DNA from: Hymenobacter siberiensis
GTDB lineage: Bacteria; Bacteroidota; Bacteroidia; Cytophagales; Hymenobacteraceae
Assembly (NCBI RefSeq): GCF_018967865.2
Contig: NZ_JAHLZY020000001.1
Coordinates: forward strand, 2,790,001-2,854,000
Reading direction: 5' to 3'
Length of the DNA stretch: 64,000 nucleotides
A model generated the notes under the pieces. It saw only the letters and a list, made by a program, of their open reading frames with translations, was not told the DNA's origin and did no database searches. Both the position numbers and the translations under genes were made by a program. Shown piece after piece: positions 5,407 to 60,526 of this stretch; position 1 is the stretch's first letter, and each line of letters begins with the position of its first letter.

Positions 5407-5502
5407 GAGTTAAGAGTTAAAAGTTATGAGTTAAGAGTTGGCTATGAGTCAATTCGAGCTCCGACTGGCAACTCTTAACTCATAACTTTTAACTCTTAAC
5501 TC
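5407..5502. repeat. Palindrome between etfB and etfA (GAGTTAAGAGTT family)
   Basis: Arms 5407-5439 and 5470-5502 are perfect 33-bp reverse complements made of GAGTTAAGAGTTAAAAGTTA and its continuation, around a 30-nt spacer. The right arm ends 6 nt before the etfA start. Members of the same family are at 40952-41049 and, inside a coding gene, at 50643-50731. Confidence 0.93.
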
Positions 5503-12230: not shown

Positions 12231-12311
12231 GTTGAACGTCATGCCCATCCCTCAGCACCTGTTTGCCTGCCACAAGTGCGAGGCTAACGTGAAGTAAGTT
12301 GAACGTCATGC
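12215..12311 (+). repeat. 30-bp direct repeat copying the end of the SDR gene
   Basis: GGCTAACGTGAAGTAAGTTG and the following GAACGTCATGC occur at 12215-12244 and again at 12282-12311. The first copy contains the stop of the SDR gene; the second runs into the left arm of the palindrome at 12301. Confidence 0.92.
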
Positions 12312-12394
12312 AGAGCGCAGCGAAGCATCTTTACCTCAATACTAATTAATTACTTGTGCGGTAAAGATGCTTCGCTGCGCTCTGCATGACGTTC
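12301..12394. repeat. Palindrome, GTCATGC...GAAGCATC family
   Basis: Arms 12301-12335 and 12360-12394 are perfect 35-bp reverse complements starting GAACGTCATGCAGAGCGCAG. The loop (TCAATACTAATTAATTACTT) is nearly identical to that of the next copy at 13357. Confidence 0.95.
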
Positions 12395-25096: not shown

Positions 25097-25201
25097 GGCC
25101 GTCATGTAGCGCGTAGCGAAGCATCTTTACCGCGCAACGCAATTCAATCAAATGGTTTACTACAGAGGTAAAGATGCTTCGCTGCGCGCTGCATGACGGC
25201 C
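25097..25201. repeat. Palindrome, GTCATGC...GAAGCATC family
   Basis: Arms 25097-25131 and 25167-25201 (GGCCGTCATGTAGCGCGTAG and onward) are 35 bp with two mismatches. The loop contains CAACGCAATTCAATCAAATG, clearly related to the loops of the copies at 38142 and 60401. Confidence 0.92.
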
Positions 25202-27470: not shown

Positions 27471-27570
27471 AACGTCATGCTGAGCGCAGTCGAAGCATCT
27501 CGCTCGCATCGTTGTCACGATTTATTTACTACTGCACGCGAGATGCTTCGACTGCGCTCAGCATAACTTT
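27471..27570. repeat. Palindrome, GTCATGC...GAAGCATC family
   Basis: Arms 27471-27503 and 27538-27570 (AACGTCATGCTGAGCGCAGT...) pair over 33 bp with two mismatches, including CATAAC in place of CATGAC in the right arm. Confidence 0.92.
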
Positions 27571-38112: not shown

Positions 38113-38141
38113 GGTTACGGTAAATTAGAAATGTAAAAAAG

Positions 38142-38246
38142 AACGTCATGCTGAGCGTAGCCGAAGCATCTCGCGTGTGGTAGTAAACCCTTTCGATTGG
38201 ATTACCATGGCACGCGAGATGCTTCGGCTACGCTCAGCATGACGTT
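38142..38246. repeat. Palindrome, GTCATGC...GAAGCATC family
   Basis: Arms 38142-38177 and 38211-38246 (AACGTCATGCTGAGCGTAGC...) pair perfectly over 36 bp. The loop TGGTAGTAAACCCTTTCGAT resembles the loops at 25132 and 60429 read in the other direction. Confidence 0.94.
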
Positions 38247-38271
38247 TTATTATTCATCGAGCAATTATGCT

Positions 38272-40951: not shown

Positions 40952-41049
40952 GAGTTATGAGTTGAATGTCAGGAGTTATGAGTTCGTTGTCAGCTTGCTA
41001 ATGCGCTCATAATCCCAACTCATAACTCCTAACTTTTAACTCATAACTC
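40952..41049. repeat. Palindrome (GAGTTATGAGTT family)
   Basis: Arms 40952-40984 and 41017-41049 (GAGTTATGAGTTGAATGTCA... and AACTCATAACTCCTAACTTT...) pair over 33 bp with a few mismatches. Related to 5407-5502 and 50643-50731. The right arm ends 12 nt before the next start codon. Confidence 0.88.
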
Positions 41050-41061
41050 ATAACTCGAAGA

Positions 41062-48623: not shown

Positions 48624-51600
48624 ATGCCTGCCCTGCCCGCCCCCTACCCCACTGCTGCCCCCGCCACGCCGGGCGCAGCCCCGATTTCCTTCCTGGCCAA
48701 CACCGCCCGCGAGCTGCTGGACCGCTACGGCTCCGGCCCGCTCGATGAGCTGTCCGATATTGTGGTGATAGTGCCTACGCGCCGCGCCGTGGTGTATTTG
48801 AAGAACGAGCTGGCGCTGGCGCTGCCCGGCGGCGCGCCGCTGTGGGCACCGCGCGTGGCCGCCATGGAAGACTACATGGTGGAGCTGGCCGGCATACAGG
48901 TAGAAGAGCCCATTGCCCTGCAATTACTGCTCTACGACATTCTGAAGGGCATCGACACCGGTCTTGATTTCGACAAATTTGTGGGCTGGGCGAGTATGCT
49001 GCTCAGCGACTTTTCCAACCTCGACCAAAACCTGGCAGACACCCACAAGGTGTTCGAATACCTGAGCGAAGCCAAGGCCCTGGAGCGCTGGGACCTGACC
49101 GCGCTGCCGCCCAAAAGCCAGGCCGCCGCGCACTCCTTTAGCTTCTGGGACCAGCTGGAGCGGGTGTATCACGAGCTGCAGCGCCGCATGAAGGCCAACC
49201 ACCTCGCCTACCCCGGCCTGGCCTACCGCCTGGCCGTGGAAAAGCTGGAAAAGATGCTGAAAGACCCGGCGCAGGCTGCGCCGGCCCGCCACGTTTTTGT
49301 GGGGCTGGGGAATTTGTCGAGGTCCGAGGAAAAGCTGATTCGCCTGCTGCTGAACGCCGGCCGGGCCGAAGTGCACTTCGACGCCGACCCGTTTTACCTC
49401 GAAGCTGGCTCGCCCAACCGCGCCGGCCAGCACCTGCGCCGCTACTTCGAGCAGTGGAAACTGCCGCTCGATAATTTTGGCGGCGGCGTGGAGTGGCTGC
49501 GCGGCCAGCCCCACCACATTCGCTACCTGGGCGTGGCCAACCCCAGCATGCAGGGCAAGCTGGCCGGCCAGCTCCTGGCCGAAGCCCGCCAGCGCTACCC
49601 CGACGCCACCGTGGCCGTGGTGCTGCCCGACGAAACCCTGCTCCTGCCCGTGCTCCACGGCCTGCCGCCCAACGAGGTGCCCGACTACAACGTGACCATG
49701 GGCCTGAGCTTCCAGGCCACGCCGCTGTTCAACCTGGTCGATTTGCTGTTTGAAGTCCACCTCACTGGCATCCGCGAGGGCAGCCAGGAAACCGGCTATG
49801 GCGTACCGCGCTACCACCATCTGGCCGTCAGCAAGCTACTGAGCCATCCCTTCCTGCGCCGCTACCAGCACTGGCAGGACCAGCAGGCCGACCAGCCCCA
49901 GTACCACGGTATTCTCGACCAAGTGTGCCGCGAAATTGTGCGCCTGAACGCGGTTTTGTTGCCCGCCGAAGAGCTGCTGAAGCTCGGCGCGCACCATCCG
50001 CTCATCGAGGCCCTGTTCAAAACCTGGGACAACTGCGACGACATTATCGCGGCCTGCTACGCCGTTATCGACCTGCTGCGCCAGGTGTACTCGGCCGAAA
50101 TAGCGGATACGGACCGCGAAACCGGACTCGGGGCCGAATACCTGTACCTGTTCTACACCCTCGTCAAGCAGCTCGATTCGGCCTTCGACTGCCGCGAGCA
50201 GCGCCTGTCGGTGCGCTCGTTCCGCCGCTTCCTGTATGAGCAGATGGGCCGCACCCGCCTGCCCTTCTCCGGCGAGCCGCTGGCCGACGTGCAGGTGATG
50301 GGCCTGCTCGAAACCCGCGCCCTCGATTTCGACCACCTCATCATCCTCAGCTGCAACGAGGGCGTGCTGCCGGCCCCCAAGCGCCAGCAGTCGCTGTTTC
50401 CCTACGACGTTCTCACGGCCGCCGACCTCCCCACTTATGCCGATGCGGAGGCCATCACGGCCTACAATTTCTGGCGCCTGCTGCAACGCGCCCAACGGGT
50501 CGATTTAGTACACGTGCTGCCCGGGGCCGAAGGCATGAAAAGCGGCGAGCGCAGCCGGTTCTTACTGCAGCTGCAGAATGACTTACTGCCCCAAAACCCG
50601 CAGCTGGTGCTGGAAGATTTAACCGTTTCGGTTCCCTCAACGGAGTTAAGAGTTAGGAGTGAAAAGTTAGGAGTTAAAGCAGCAGCAGCTATTGATTCAA
50701 CTCCTAACTCTTCACTCCTAACTCTTAGCTCACTCCAAGGCGACCTCGTCCTCGAAAAAGACCCCGAGATGCTGGCCGCCCTGCGTGGCGTGCTCGAACG
50801 CAACATCTCGCCCTCCCGCCTCAACGATTTCCTGGCCTGCTCGCTCCGCTTCTACTTCTCGAAAGTGGCCCGCTTCCACGAAAACGATGCCGTGGAAGAA
50901 ACCCTCGAAGCCAGCAGCTTCGGCACCATGATGCACGAGGCGCTGGAAAATCTGATGCGACCCTTCGAGCAAGATGCCCGTTCGATTACGGCCGAGGATA
51001 TTCCCGCGCTTATCAAGCAGGCCCCGGCCGAGGTGCAACGCGCCCTGCGCCAGGAAGAAAGCGAGAAGCACGCCCGCGCCGACGAAGGCCTCAACCACGT
51101 GTACGGCCAGGTAGCCACCCGCCTGGTGGTGCGCCTGCTGGAAAGCCTCACCGAGCAGCCCGGTATGCTGCCGTTGCGCCTTTTTGGGCTTGAAAAGGAA
51201 CTGGCCGCCACCATTTTTGTCGATGTGCCGGGCCAGGCCGAGCCGCTGGCGGTGCGCCTGTTCGGTTACGCCGACCGCGTGGATGAGCTACCCGACGGCC
51301 GCCTGCGGGTAGTGGACTACAAGTCGGGGCTCGTGAAAAAGAGCGACCTGCAGCTGCGCGGCTACCGCGACAAGCTCACCGCCGCCGAAGCCACCGACCG
51401 CCTCCTGCACGAGCCCAGCACTAGCGCCGACAAGGTGCGCCAGCTCTGGCTCTACCGCCTCATGCTGGCCCACACCGTGAAACGCGAAACGGCCGAAACG
51501 GCTATTCTCTCGCTCCGGAACATCGACGAAGGCCTGCTCTCCGCCGACCTCAGCTTCCTCACCGAAGGCGGCGAAGACTTCGTAGCCGTTTCCGAAGACT

Positions 51601-51710
51601 TGGTGCGCAAAATCGTCCTCCGCATCCTCGACCCCACCGAACCCATCCGCAAAACCGACGACTTCACAAAGTGCGAATACTGCCCCTATAAAGGCATCTG
51701 TGCGAGGTGA
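48624..51710 (+). CDS. AddB-like Fe-S nuclease (PD-(D/E)XK)
   Basis: A 1,028-residue double-strand-break repair nuclease-type protein. The N-terminal part has the inactivated helicase-like start (FLANTARELLDRYG, IVVIVPTRRAVVYLKNE). The C-terminal nuclease has VDYKSG (about residue 898) preceded by GYADRVDELPDGRL. Four Cys are placed as in AddB iron-sulfur nucleases: one in NDFLACSLRFYF (about 739) and three in CEYCPYKGIC (1017, 1020, 1026). With an AddA-type helicase it would process DNA ends for recombination. Residues 674-703 are encoded by a palindromic repeat inserted in frame. AddA is not seen in the window. Confidence 0.9.
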   Translation: MPALPAPYPTAAPATPGAAPISFLANTARELLDRYGSGPLDELSDIVVIVPTRRAVVYLKNELALALPGGAPLWAPRVAAMEDYMVELAGIQVEEPIALQLLLYDILKGIDTGLDFDKFVGWASMLLSDFSNLDQNLADTHKVFEYLSEAKALERWDLTALPPKSQAAAHSFSFWDQLERVYHELQRRMKANHLAYPGLAYRLAVEKLEKMLKDPAQAAPARHVFVGLGNLSRSEEKLIRLLLNAGRAEVHFDADPFYLEAGSPNRAGQHLRRYFEQWKLPLDNFGGGVEWLRGQPHHIRYLGVANPSMQGKLAGQLLAEARQRYPDATVAVVLPDETLLLPVLHGLPPNEVPDYNVTMGLSFQATPLFNLVDLLFEVHLTGIREGSQETGYGVPRYHHLAVSKLLSHPFLRRYQHWQDQQADQPQYHGILDQVCREIVRLNAVLLPAEELLKLGAHHPLIEALFKTWDNCDDIIAACYAVIDLLRQVYSAEIADTDRETGLGAEYLYLFYTLVKQLDSAFDCREQRLSVRSFRRFLYEQMGRTRLPFSGEPLADVQVMGLLETRALDFDHLIILSCNEGVLPAPKRQQSLFPYDVLTAADLPTYADAEAITAYNFWRLLQRAQRVDLVHVLPGAEGMKSGERSRFLLQLQNDLLPQNPQLVLEDLTVSVPSTELRVRSEKLGVKAAAAIDSTPNSSLLTLSSLQGDLVLEKDPEMLAALRGVLERNISPSRLNDFLACSLRFYFSKVARFHENDAVEETLEASSFGTMMHEALENLMRPFEQDARSITAEDIPALIKQAPAEVQRALRQEESEKHARADEGLNHVYGQVATRLVVRLLESLTEQPGMLPLRLFGLEKELAATIFVDVPGQAEPLAVRLFGYADRVDELPDGRLRVVDYKSGLVKKSDLQLRGYRDKLTAAEATDRLLHEPSTSADKVRQLWLYRLMLAHTVKRETAETAILSLRNIDEGLLSADLSFLTEGGEDFVAVSEDLVRKIVLRILDPTEPIRKTDDFTKCEYCPYKGICAR
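50643..50731 (+). repeat. Palindrome inserted in frame inside the AddB-like gene
   Basis: Arms 50643-50675 (GAGTTAAGAGTTAGGAGTGA...) and 50699-50731 pair over 33 bp with two mismatches, around a 23-nt spacer containing GCAGCAGCAGCT. It belongs to the same family as the intergenic elements at 5407 and 40952. It is read as ELRVRSEKLGVK, AAAAIDSTP and NSSLLTLSS without a stop, and the flanking protein stays in frame. Confidence 0.95.
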
Positions 51711-54370: not shown

Positions 54371-54520
54371 GAAGCTGTTTAGAAAGTCCCCGAACGGTCA
54401 TGCAGCGCGCAGCGAAGCATGACCGTCGCATCCTCAGGCCCGTTCAACGATGCAAGCAAGATGCTTCGCTGCGCGCTGCATGACCGGTTGAGTACCTTTT
54501 GTGACTTTCTAAACAACTCC
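54371..54520. mobile_element. MITE-like element, copy B (150 bp)
   Basis: Ends GAAGCTGTTTAGAAAGTC and the complement of GGAGTTGTTTAGAAAGTCAC, with the same core as copy A at 3849-3993. Its surroundings show it inserted into a GTCATGC-family palindrome (GAACGGTCATGCTTCGGCGG on the left, AGCATGACCGTT on the right), which gives the order of events. Confidence 0.75.
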
Positions 54521-60380: not shown

Positions 60381-60400
60381 CTTTATTACTTAGGAAGTAG

Positions 60401-60504
60401 AACGTCATGCAGAGCGCAGCGAAGCATCTTGCCCGTCACAACTAATCCAAGCGGTTTAATTGCGTTGTGCAGTAACGATGCTTCGCTGCGCTCTGCATGA
60501 CGCT
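60401..60504. repeat. Palindrome between paaA and paaB, GTCATGC...GAAGCATC family
   Basis: Arms 60401-60428 and 60477-60504 pair over 28 bp with a single mismatch (AACGTCATGCAGAGCGCAGC...). The loop includes CGGTTTAATTGCGTTGTGC, the inverted relative of the loop at 25132. It lies inside the epoxidase operon. Confidence 0.93.
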
Positions 60505-60526
60505 CTGAAAATTATTGCTTGTAATG

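Follow-up and report, generated by a model that had tools for sequence, protein, structure and literature searches.

A short palindrome built of 7-bp units lies inside the gene of an AddB-like protein of Hymenobacter siberiensis, and the same protein linker carries palindromes of other sequence families in related species. It is likely that miniature palindromes from several families entered these genomes repeatedly, survived at permissive sites and, in AddB, are read as part of a linker. The element was found in a window of 64,000 nts, which is the whole stretch of DNA analysed here. A preliminary description of the window, made from its letters, had proposed the insertion of a single repeat family into the AddB linker, a picture that is now widened, since palindromes of five families use the site and so does a nuclease gene.

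The AddB-like gene and its palindromic element

The gene, the element and the protein regions around it lie at the following positions of the window:

48624..51710, + strand, AddB-like host gene, 1028 aa
50643..50731, no strand assigned, heptamer palindrome, in-frame residues 674-703 (inverted repeat, frame, RNA fold)
50643..50676, + strand, left arm, units GAGTTAA GAGTTAG GAGTGAA AAGTTAG GAGTTAA
50698..50731, - strand, right arm, units complementary to the left arm
50634..50744, + strand, codons of the low-confidence linker, residues 671-707 (structure model)
50805..51701, + strand, PD-(D/E)XK nuclease domain, residues 728-1026 (PDDEXK_1 match)

As first described, the open reading frame 48624-51710 runs through 50643-50731 without a stop codon; the length of the element, 89 bp, is not divisible by three. 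The palindrome itself was described correctly, but its arms, given as 33 bp, were redefined: the stem core consists of five GAGTTAN heptamers and their complement (about 34 nts), within a full inverted repeat with arms of 44 nts each, 86% complementary and spaced by 1 nt. The heptamer make-up of the arms is new to this analysis. In the left arm, the third unit is the only one whose bases 5-7 form a codon, and there GAA replaces TAA. Folded as RNA, the element reaches -52 kcal/mol (z -10.5), while shuffled sequences average -19 and none of 200 folds as well.

The host protein matches PDDEXK_1 at residues 728-1026. NCBIfam AddB models are among its best matches with scores far below their cut-offs, and since these cut-offs are not reached the protein is named AddB-like. 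Its best fold match is chain B of AddAB (3u4q_B, E 2.6e-27, TM-score 0.44), while a sequence search of the PDB returned no chain at E 0.1; an AddB fold followed by a C-terminal PD-(D/E)XK nuclease is thus what the host protein presents. The structure model, built from 22 sequences, has a mean pLDDT of 76.8, and its longest run below 50 covers residues 671-707. According to this model the element sits in an unstructured linker in which residues 671-707 adopt no confident fold, which supports the earlier suggestion that it is tolerated as a linker. In the cell it would be translated as a linker peptide of about 30 residues.

The AddB linker across Hymenobacter

AddB-like genes were searched for in 59 genomes and matched in 52. 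The nearest empty orthologues (L002, L003 and L006, 88-93% identical) have no hairpin in the linker, in agreement with an insertion, and their linker region is 66 bp shorter than that of the window gene. The clean gap of about 30 residues anticipated at 674-703 did not appear: the residues of these linkers are unalignable, and on balance the lengths differ by 22 residues. Neither a resolved clean empty site nor a target duplication was found in the addB or ileS comparisons. The residues of the element are absent from the two orthologues of other genera that were aligned (L037 and L038).

A linker hairpin scoring at least 13.5 is present in 12 of 36 AddB genes, including that of the window, and in each it outscores every hairpin that the gene has outside the linker; the other 24 remain below 13.5. 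This set leaves out L037, which lacks anchors, and the broken gene of G010, whose AddB-like match (L035, G010:C1:3816886-3819875) falls into five pieces in several frames with one TGA, so that either the gene is broken or the assembly is poor. Five palindrome families, assigned by eye, occupy the linker: GAGTTA in the window gene, GAATGA in L004, GTTGTCA in L024 and L026, CCTCACCC in L005, L017, L027, L029 and L034, and an AGCT type in L022. The L022 hairpin (13.5) lies above the maximum of its own gene (12.5) and below the highest value found in other genes (14.5). L028 was given the AGCT label in the tree by eye only, its score of 10.0 being below the 13.5 found elsewhere in its gene. In L031 and L032, CCTCACCC surrounds a whole in-frame DUF559 gene (Pfam), encoding a Vsr-like endonuclease.

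On an AddB protein tree of 37 rows, calculated with the linker omitted and with seven linker states, at least 12 state changes are needed. Shuffled labels require 12.6 on average and reach so low a number in 68 of 200 cases, showing that the states are not clustered. Of the close sisters L015 and L032, the former has no hairpin and the latter a DUF559 cassette. The mobility proposed in the preliminary description is supported by these changes, together with one in-frame copy that is present in the strain G059 and absent from the genome of the window (G000). The AddB linker hence looks like a landing pad used repeatedly by selfish DNA.

Copies inside other protein genes

A copy was counted as in-gene when its reading frame continued for over 50 residues in each direction. 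By this definition, six of the 35 copies inspected in G000 lie in genes, so that the family is present in other coding frames too. Besides addB, the hosts are methylmalonyl-CoA mutase, HrpB, an alpha/beta hydrolase (its Pfam score being under the cut-off), an E1 alpha-beta fusion and a family 9 glycosyltransferase (Pfam). In all six, bases 5-7 of the codon-forming left-arm unit read GAA where the consensus would give TAA or TAG; this unit is the third alone in five copies and units 1 and 4 in L122, according to the register found. The copy of the E1 fusion occupies the gap separating the alpha and beta domains, and those of the hydrolase and glycosyltransferase lie within a domain.

At the orthologues of the other gene sites in seven near relatives, a hairpin was found in 14 of the 33 cases measured and the other 19 score below 13.5, one further case out of 34 being without anchors. 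The hairpins are of the GAGTTA, GAATGA, GTTGTCA, CAGTTA/CAGTGA and GGGTAAG types. At the six gene sites, addB included, G019 has the GAATGA type throughout and G000 the GAGTTA type throughout.

Copies between genes

Two copies had been described between genes of the window; the first stands as it was, and the second is real but ends at 41056 and not at 41049:

5407..5502, no strand assigned, intergenic copy from stop codon to next start codon, stops in all six frames
40952..41056, no strand assigned, intergenic copy with one right-arm unit more than in G059, stops in all six frames

The family is far from confined to these sites. The 89-bp query gave at least 54 match rows in G000, many places being listed on both strands, and 40 of 64 first-look candidates were scored. 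Many non-genic copies stand close to the upstream stop codon, a few bases away at most, and 3-7 nts ahead of the next start codon; their neighbours include genes that we take, by their sequences, to be etfA, atpG, rpmA and iscU. Of 20 non-genic copies, just one has an open frame, whichever of the frames is read, a count that omits nine of 29 as one-armed, degenerate or interrupted. The Fisher test on open frames is circular because the gene copies were defined by their openness.

Ten intergenic sites were followed in G011, G019 and G022, where 25 of 29 orthologues have a hairpin (score at least 14), one of the 30 regions being cut by a contig end. Among orthologues of spacers that are hairpin-free in G000, the proportion is 5 of 15 (p 0.0007), these controls coming from five of the seven control genes queried. 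Among the ten sites of G000, that at gcvH has itself eroded, to a score of 6.5.

The families differ in abundance between species. The GAGTTA query, with at least 54 match rows in G000, has none in G019 among the matches listed, while the GAATGA query has at least 22 in G000 and at least 86 in G019. Hairpins of other 7-bp units (CATTTAACA-like and AGCTNNN) occur at 400-552 and 1640-1730 of the window, so several heptamer families coexist in one genome. A second abundant palindrome family, GTCATGC...GAAGCATCT, was observed at 12301-12394, 25097-25201, 27471-27570, 38131-38257, 54383-54498 and 60399-60506; it also occupies stop-to-start gaps, and some of its sites have heptamer hairpins in other species.

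Variation between strains

A counterpart region was found in G059, a strain of the same species, for 35 of 36 queried G000 copies. Nearly all of these copies are common to both strains, indicating slow turnover within the species. The 32 copies that were paired (2,733 aligned nts; L096, L107 and one L140 copy are omitted and another L140 copy is without a partner) differ by 15 substitutions and by six indels within 8 nts. Five of these indels measure exactly 7 bp and the sixth, of 1 bp, is at an edge. Across 44,729 nts of flank, 164 substitutions were counted along with five indels, no one of them 7 bp long. The six in-gene copies, few as they are, show no indel between the strains, which is expected if frameshifts are removed. 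It was also observed that three heptamer elements (L096, L107 and L140) hold larger inserts in G000 that are not in G059 (L072, L086 and L089), namely a TAGGACTTACGCA element of 117 bp, a palindrome of 98 bp and, with a direct repeat of 10 bp, an IS-like insert of more than 1 kb. Other elements may thus find a safe haven in heptamer hairpins.

The one in-frame difference concerns the essential gene ileS (G059 L124 versus G000 L139:9486-12866), whose product scores above the cut-off of the isoleucyl-tRNA synthetase model. G059 has an in-frame heptamer hairpin of 87 nts where G000 has 15 nts, a net difference of 24 codons. Among 12 further genomes, the site carries a CCTCACCC palindrome in G025; in G012 it holds an eroded sequence related to the G059 insert, and the other ten are without a hairpin. 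The G012 insert shares its first and last residues with that of G059 and its hairpin scores 6.5, while the short form is common to G000 and G036, the sister of G012. In addition, the neighbourhood of the site differs by 1-2.6% between the strains, compared with 0.4% in the flanks of paired copies. Because the distant G012 shares the allele and the divergence of the surroundings is above average, the insert may be an import and not a new insertion. Judging from these alignments, homologous recombination may have carried both the occupied and the empty allele from one lineage to another. The ileS difference is a presence/absence polymorphism and not proof of a fresh jump.

DUF559 cassettes

DUF559 is present in 51 of 61 Hymenobacter genomes. 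The loci concerned are:

L031 and L032, within AddB
L039-L070, further DUF559 loci
L069 (G000:C1:1550607) and L070, the loci of this genome

An exact inverted repeat of at least 14 bp brackets DUF559 in 27 of 32 fetched loci, against 2 of 88 control loci. By eye, 24 of these 27 repeats are of the CCTCACCC / CCCCTCTCC kind, which occurs bare in other AddB linkers. DUF559 shares one open frame with PurQ-like, MetH and UvrD-type (AddA-like) domains, precedes RecQ in frame and lies within AddB. The G059 counterpart of the RecQ-linked copy contains a TAG. PurQ is a second gene with repeated invasions: several unlike DUF559 proteins were observed at PurQ C-termini, and in L041, L045 and L046, which have a C-terminus joined to DUF559, heptamer-typical peptides such as DNSQLTTDN precede the PurQ domain. 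A DUF559 protein of Caulobacter is described as Vsr-like and linked to DNA damage in the available part of PMC12907096.

DUF559 was considered as the mobiliser of the heptamer families and rejected, its bracketing repeats not being heptamer arms. The gene arrangements would fit an autonomous partner of the palindromes, and cargo is possible. A broader reading, tentative and somewhat more likely wrong than right, is that a set of permissive protein linkers and intercistronic gaps, even in essential genes such as ileS, are landing pads that unrelated palindromes of the genus occupy one after another, and that one of the palindrome families has an autonomous form, with DUF559 between terminal hairpins, which lives as a domain of host proteins (AddB, AddA, PurQ, MetH and perhaps RecQ) and from which the bare palindromes derive as non-autonomous versions. 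Among the open-access papers searched, most subscription papers being outside that scope, none was listed that links DUF559 to palindromes or Vsr-like proteins to mobile elements, or that describes Hymenobacter palindromic repeats of this sort.

Origin and persistence of the palindromes

Under the favoured reading, gene-less miniature palindromes with about five 7-bp units per arm, belonging to several sequence families, would arrive in the genome again and again, one of them having inserted into the unstructured linker of the AddB-like protein, where it would be read as 30 residues. They would persist where harm is small, in stop-to-start gaps, flexible loops and domain linkers, with only stop-free versions surviving in protein genes. 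Such sites being few, the same ones would be emptied and then refilled by unrelated families, so that elements would land in the AddB linker time after time; occupied and empty alleles would then spread through homologous recombination, and arms would gain or lose single heptamers. This scheme presumes a mobilising activity acting in trans, and the hotspot would be made by tolerance and not by target choice.

Concerted evolution, in which each site has one ancient hairpin whose arms are rewritten by gene conversion to the dominant family of the species, is improbable. It would account for the dominance of GAGTTA in G000 and GAATGA in G019 among the matches listed, for the finding of its own type in each of these genomes at all six compared gene sites, and for the etfA, iscU and dinB loops, which look alike across families by eye. 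However, this arm conversion with conserved loops, convincing by eye at these three sites, failed the loop test: the loops of 26 different-family pairs at shared sites are no more alike than unrelated ones (5.08 versus 4.83; permutation p 0.87), whereas same-family pairs average 9.4 against 5.1, with six of eight in the top 4%; the loop trimming used for the 5.08 and 9.4 values was fixed after the permutation test. Because different-family loops are unlike and same-family loops are alike, a change of family at a site brings a new hairpin. Moreover, G000 and G022 have similar loops although G022 is more distant than G011 (AddB identity of 88 versus 93%). As far as sequence comparison goes, the loop pattern favours new insertion over arm conversion.

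Slightly less credible still is an origin without movement, the palindromes forming where they stand, in sequence under weak constraint, through slippage and fold-back copying. The loops do differ among copies, the arm changes are single heptamers and neither a mobiliser nor a target duplication was found, but one unit sequence recurs at dozens of sites in a single genome, the exact hairpin is present in several phyla and sister species hold different families at one site. A selected use, whereby hairpins slow translation between domains or couple neighbours in operons, is the least plausible of these accounts. The very stable stem and sites such as the AddB linker, the E1 alpha/beta gap and many stop-to-start gaps would suit such a role; against it, the linker hairpin score falls below 13.5 in two thirds of the AddB genes, more than half of the relatives' other gene sites (19 of 33) likewise score below it, the hydrolase and glycosyltransferase copies sit inside a domain and the sequence families turn over.

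A RAYT was also rejected as the mobiliser, GAGTTA or GAATGA hairpins being found at none of 13 inspected Y1-transposase loci (16 found). At one such locus, L242, another heptamer-like hairpin was observed some hundred bases away. In the 80 listed loci of other genomes, no neighbouring gene is special to the hairpin among ORFs of at least 100 aa: the 12 largest shared neighbour families comprise response regulators and an ABC ATPase, and otherwise genes whose order is conserved within cyanobacteria. None of the loci examined showed a gene flanked by heptamer arms, the kind of autonomous partner with matching ends that a MITE would have, along with a target-site duplication.

Relation to known repeats

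The resemblance to the Rickettsia palindromic elements (RPE) that had been suggested holds for behaviour but not for membership. RPE, with their kin in Wolbachia and Methanocaldococcus jannaschii, are palindromes of about 100 bp found between genes and in frame within conserved genes, at unstructured places, as described in the available parts of PMC2229807 and PMC2996958. The Hymenobacter element likewise is a stem-loop (-52 kcal/mol) in many copies, slightly shorter at 89 bp than the 105-146 bp quoted in PMC2229807, which also places RPE in RNA genes, and it lies in frame in six of 35 inspected G000 copies and in a seventh, in ileS of G059. In contrast to RPE, the Hymenobacter elements consist of 7-bp tandem units with unrelated loops, form several families per genus and live in a different phylum; Rickettsia is absent from the 80 loci with the exact GAGTTA hairpin that are among the matches listed. 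By analogy, the element works like an RPE while belonging to a different, heptamer-built family.

Cyanobacteria have degenerate heptanucleotide repeats known as STRR. In these, for instance P6b of the Nostoc tRNA-Leu intron, the arms pair and copy number varies, according to the part of PMC3488679 available. The Hymenobacter elements share both features, as degenerate 7-nt tandem units pair as a hairpin and whole units come and go (five of six indels are of 7 bp). They differ by lying inside protein genes too, the cyanobacterial repeats in that source being in an intron or between genes. TAACTGA heptamers of Beggiatoaceae, Cyanobacteria and a few Bacteroidetes also have 7-bp units, often just before start codons, and three groups are shared; the available part of PMC4679880 gives no known mechanism for them and describes direct repeats, with one inverted case, that generally do not form hairpins. 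As short dispersed gene-less palindromes, the elements further resemble REP/RAYT and MITE (PMC3733652 and PMC3116915, in part). Unlike REP, they end in GAGTTA...TAACTC and not in the GTAG-type tag given in PMC3733652, and whereas some RAYT loci have their own GTAGCGCGGACT-type hairpins, GAGTTA or GAATGA hairpins are absent from the 13 Y1-transposase loci inspected.

The exact GAGTTA hairpin was found at 80 or more loci; by record title, the 80 listed comprise 33 in Bacteroidota, 32 in Cyanobacteria, 8 in Hydrogenedentes, 3 in Acidobacteria, 2 in Chloroflexi and 2 in Oscillospiraceae. The cyanobacterial loci, at least 32, are mostly from Nostocales by title, and a presence in heterocystous cyanobacteria is a further feature in common with STRR. 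These loci are contained in L257-L333, with L261 and its kin from Hydrogenedentes. The hairpin lies near what we take to be rbcL in Nostoc and, presumably, ATP synthase genes in four cyanobacteria. No in-frame copy occurs in these loci, a scan from which stop-free copies were excluded because its pattern demands exact TTA units.

Significance

Rickettsia, Wolbachia and an archaeon are the reported hosts of palindromes that code for protein (PMC2996958, in its available part), and the Hymenobacter case extends them to free-living Bacteroidota. From the link to DUF559, a nuclease family whose function is listed as unknown may be suspected of a mobile role. A 7-bp slip would shift the frame of the host, so that copies within genes could serve as switches by mutation. 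The repeated, family-switching reuse of protein sites makes the choice between tolerance and target preference testable, and the elements provide a natural map of linkers in housekeeping proteins that accept 20-30 extra residues, together with a strain pair differing by one ileS insert.
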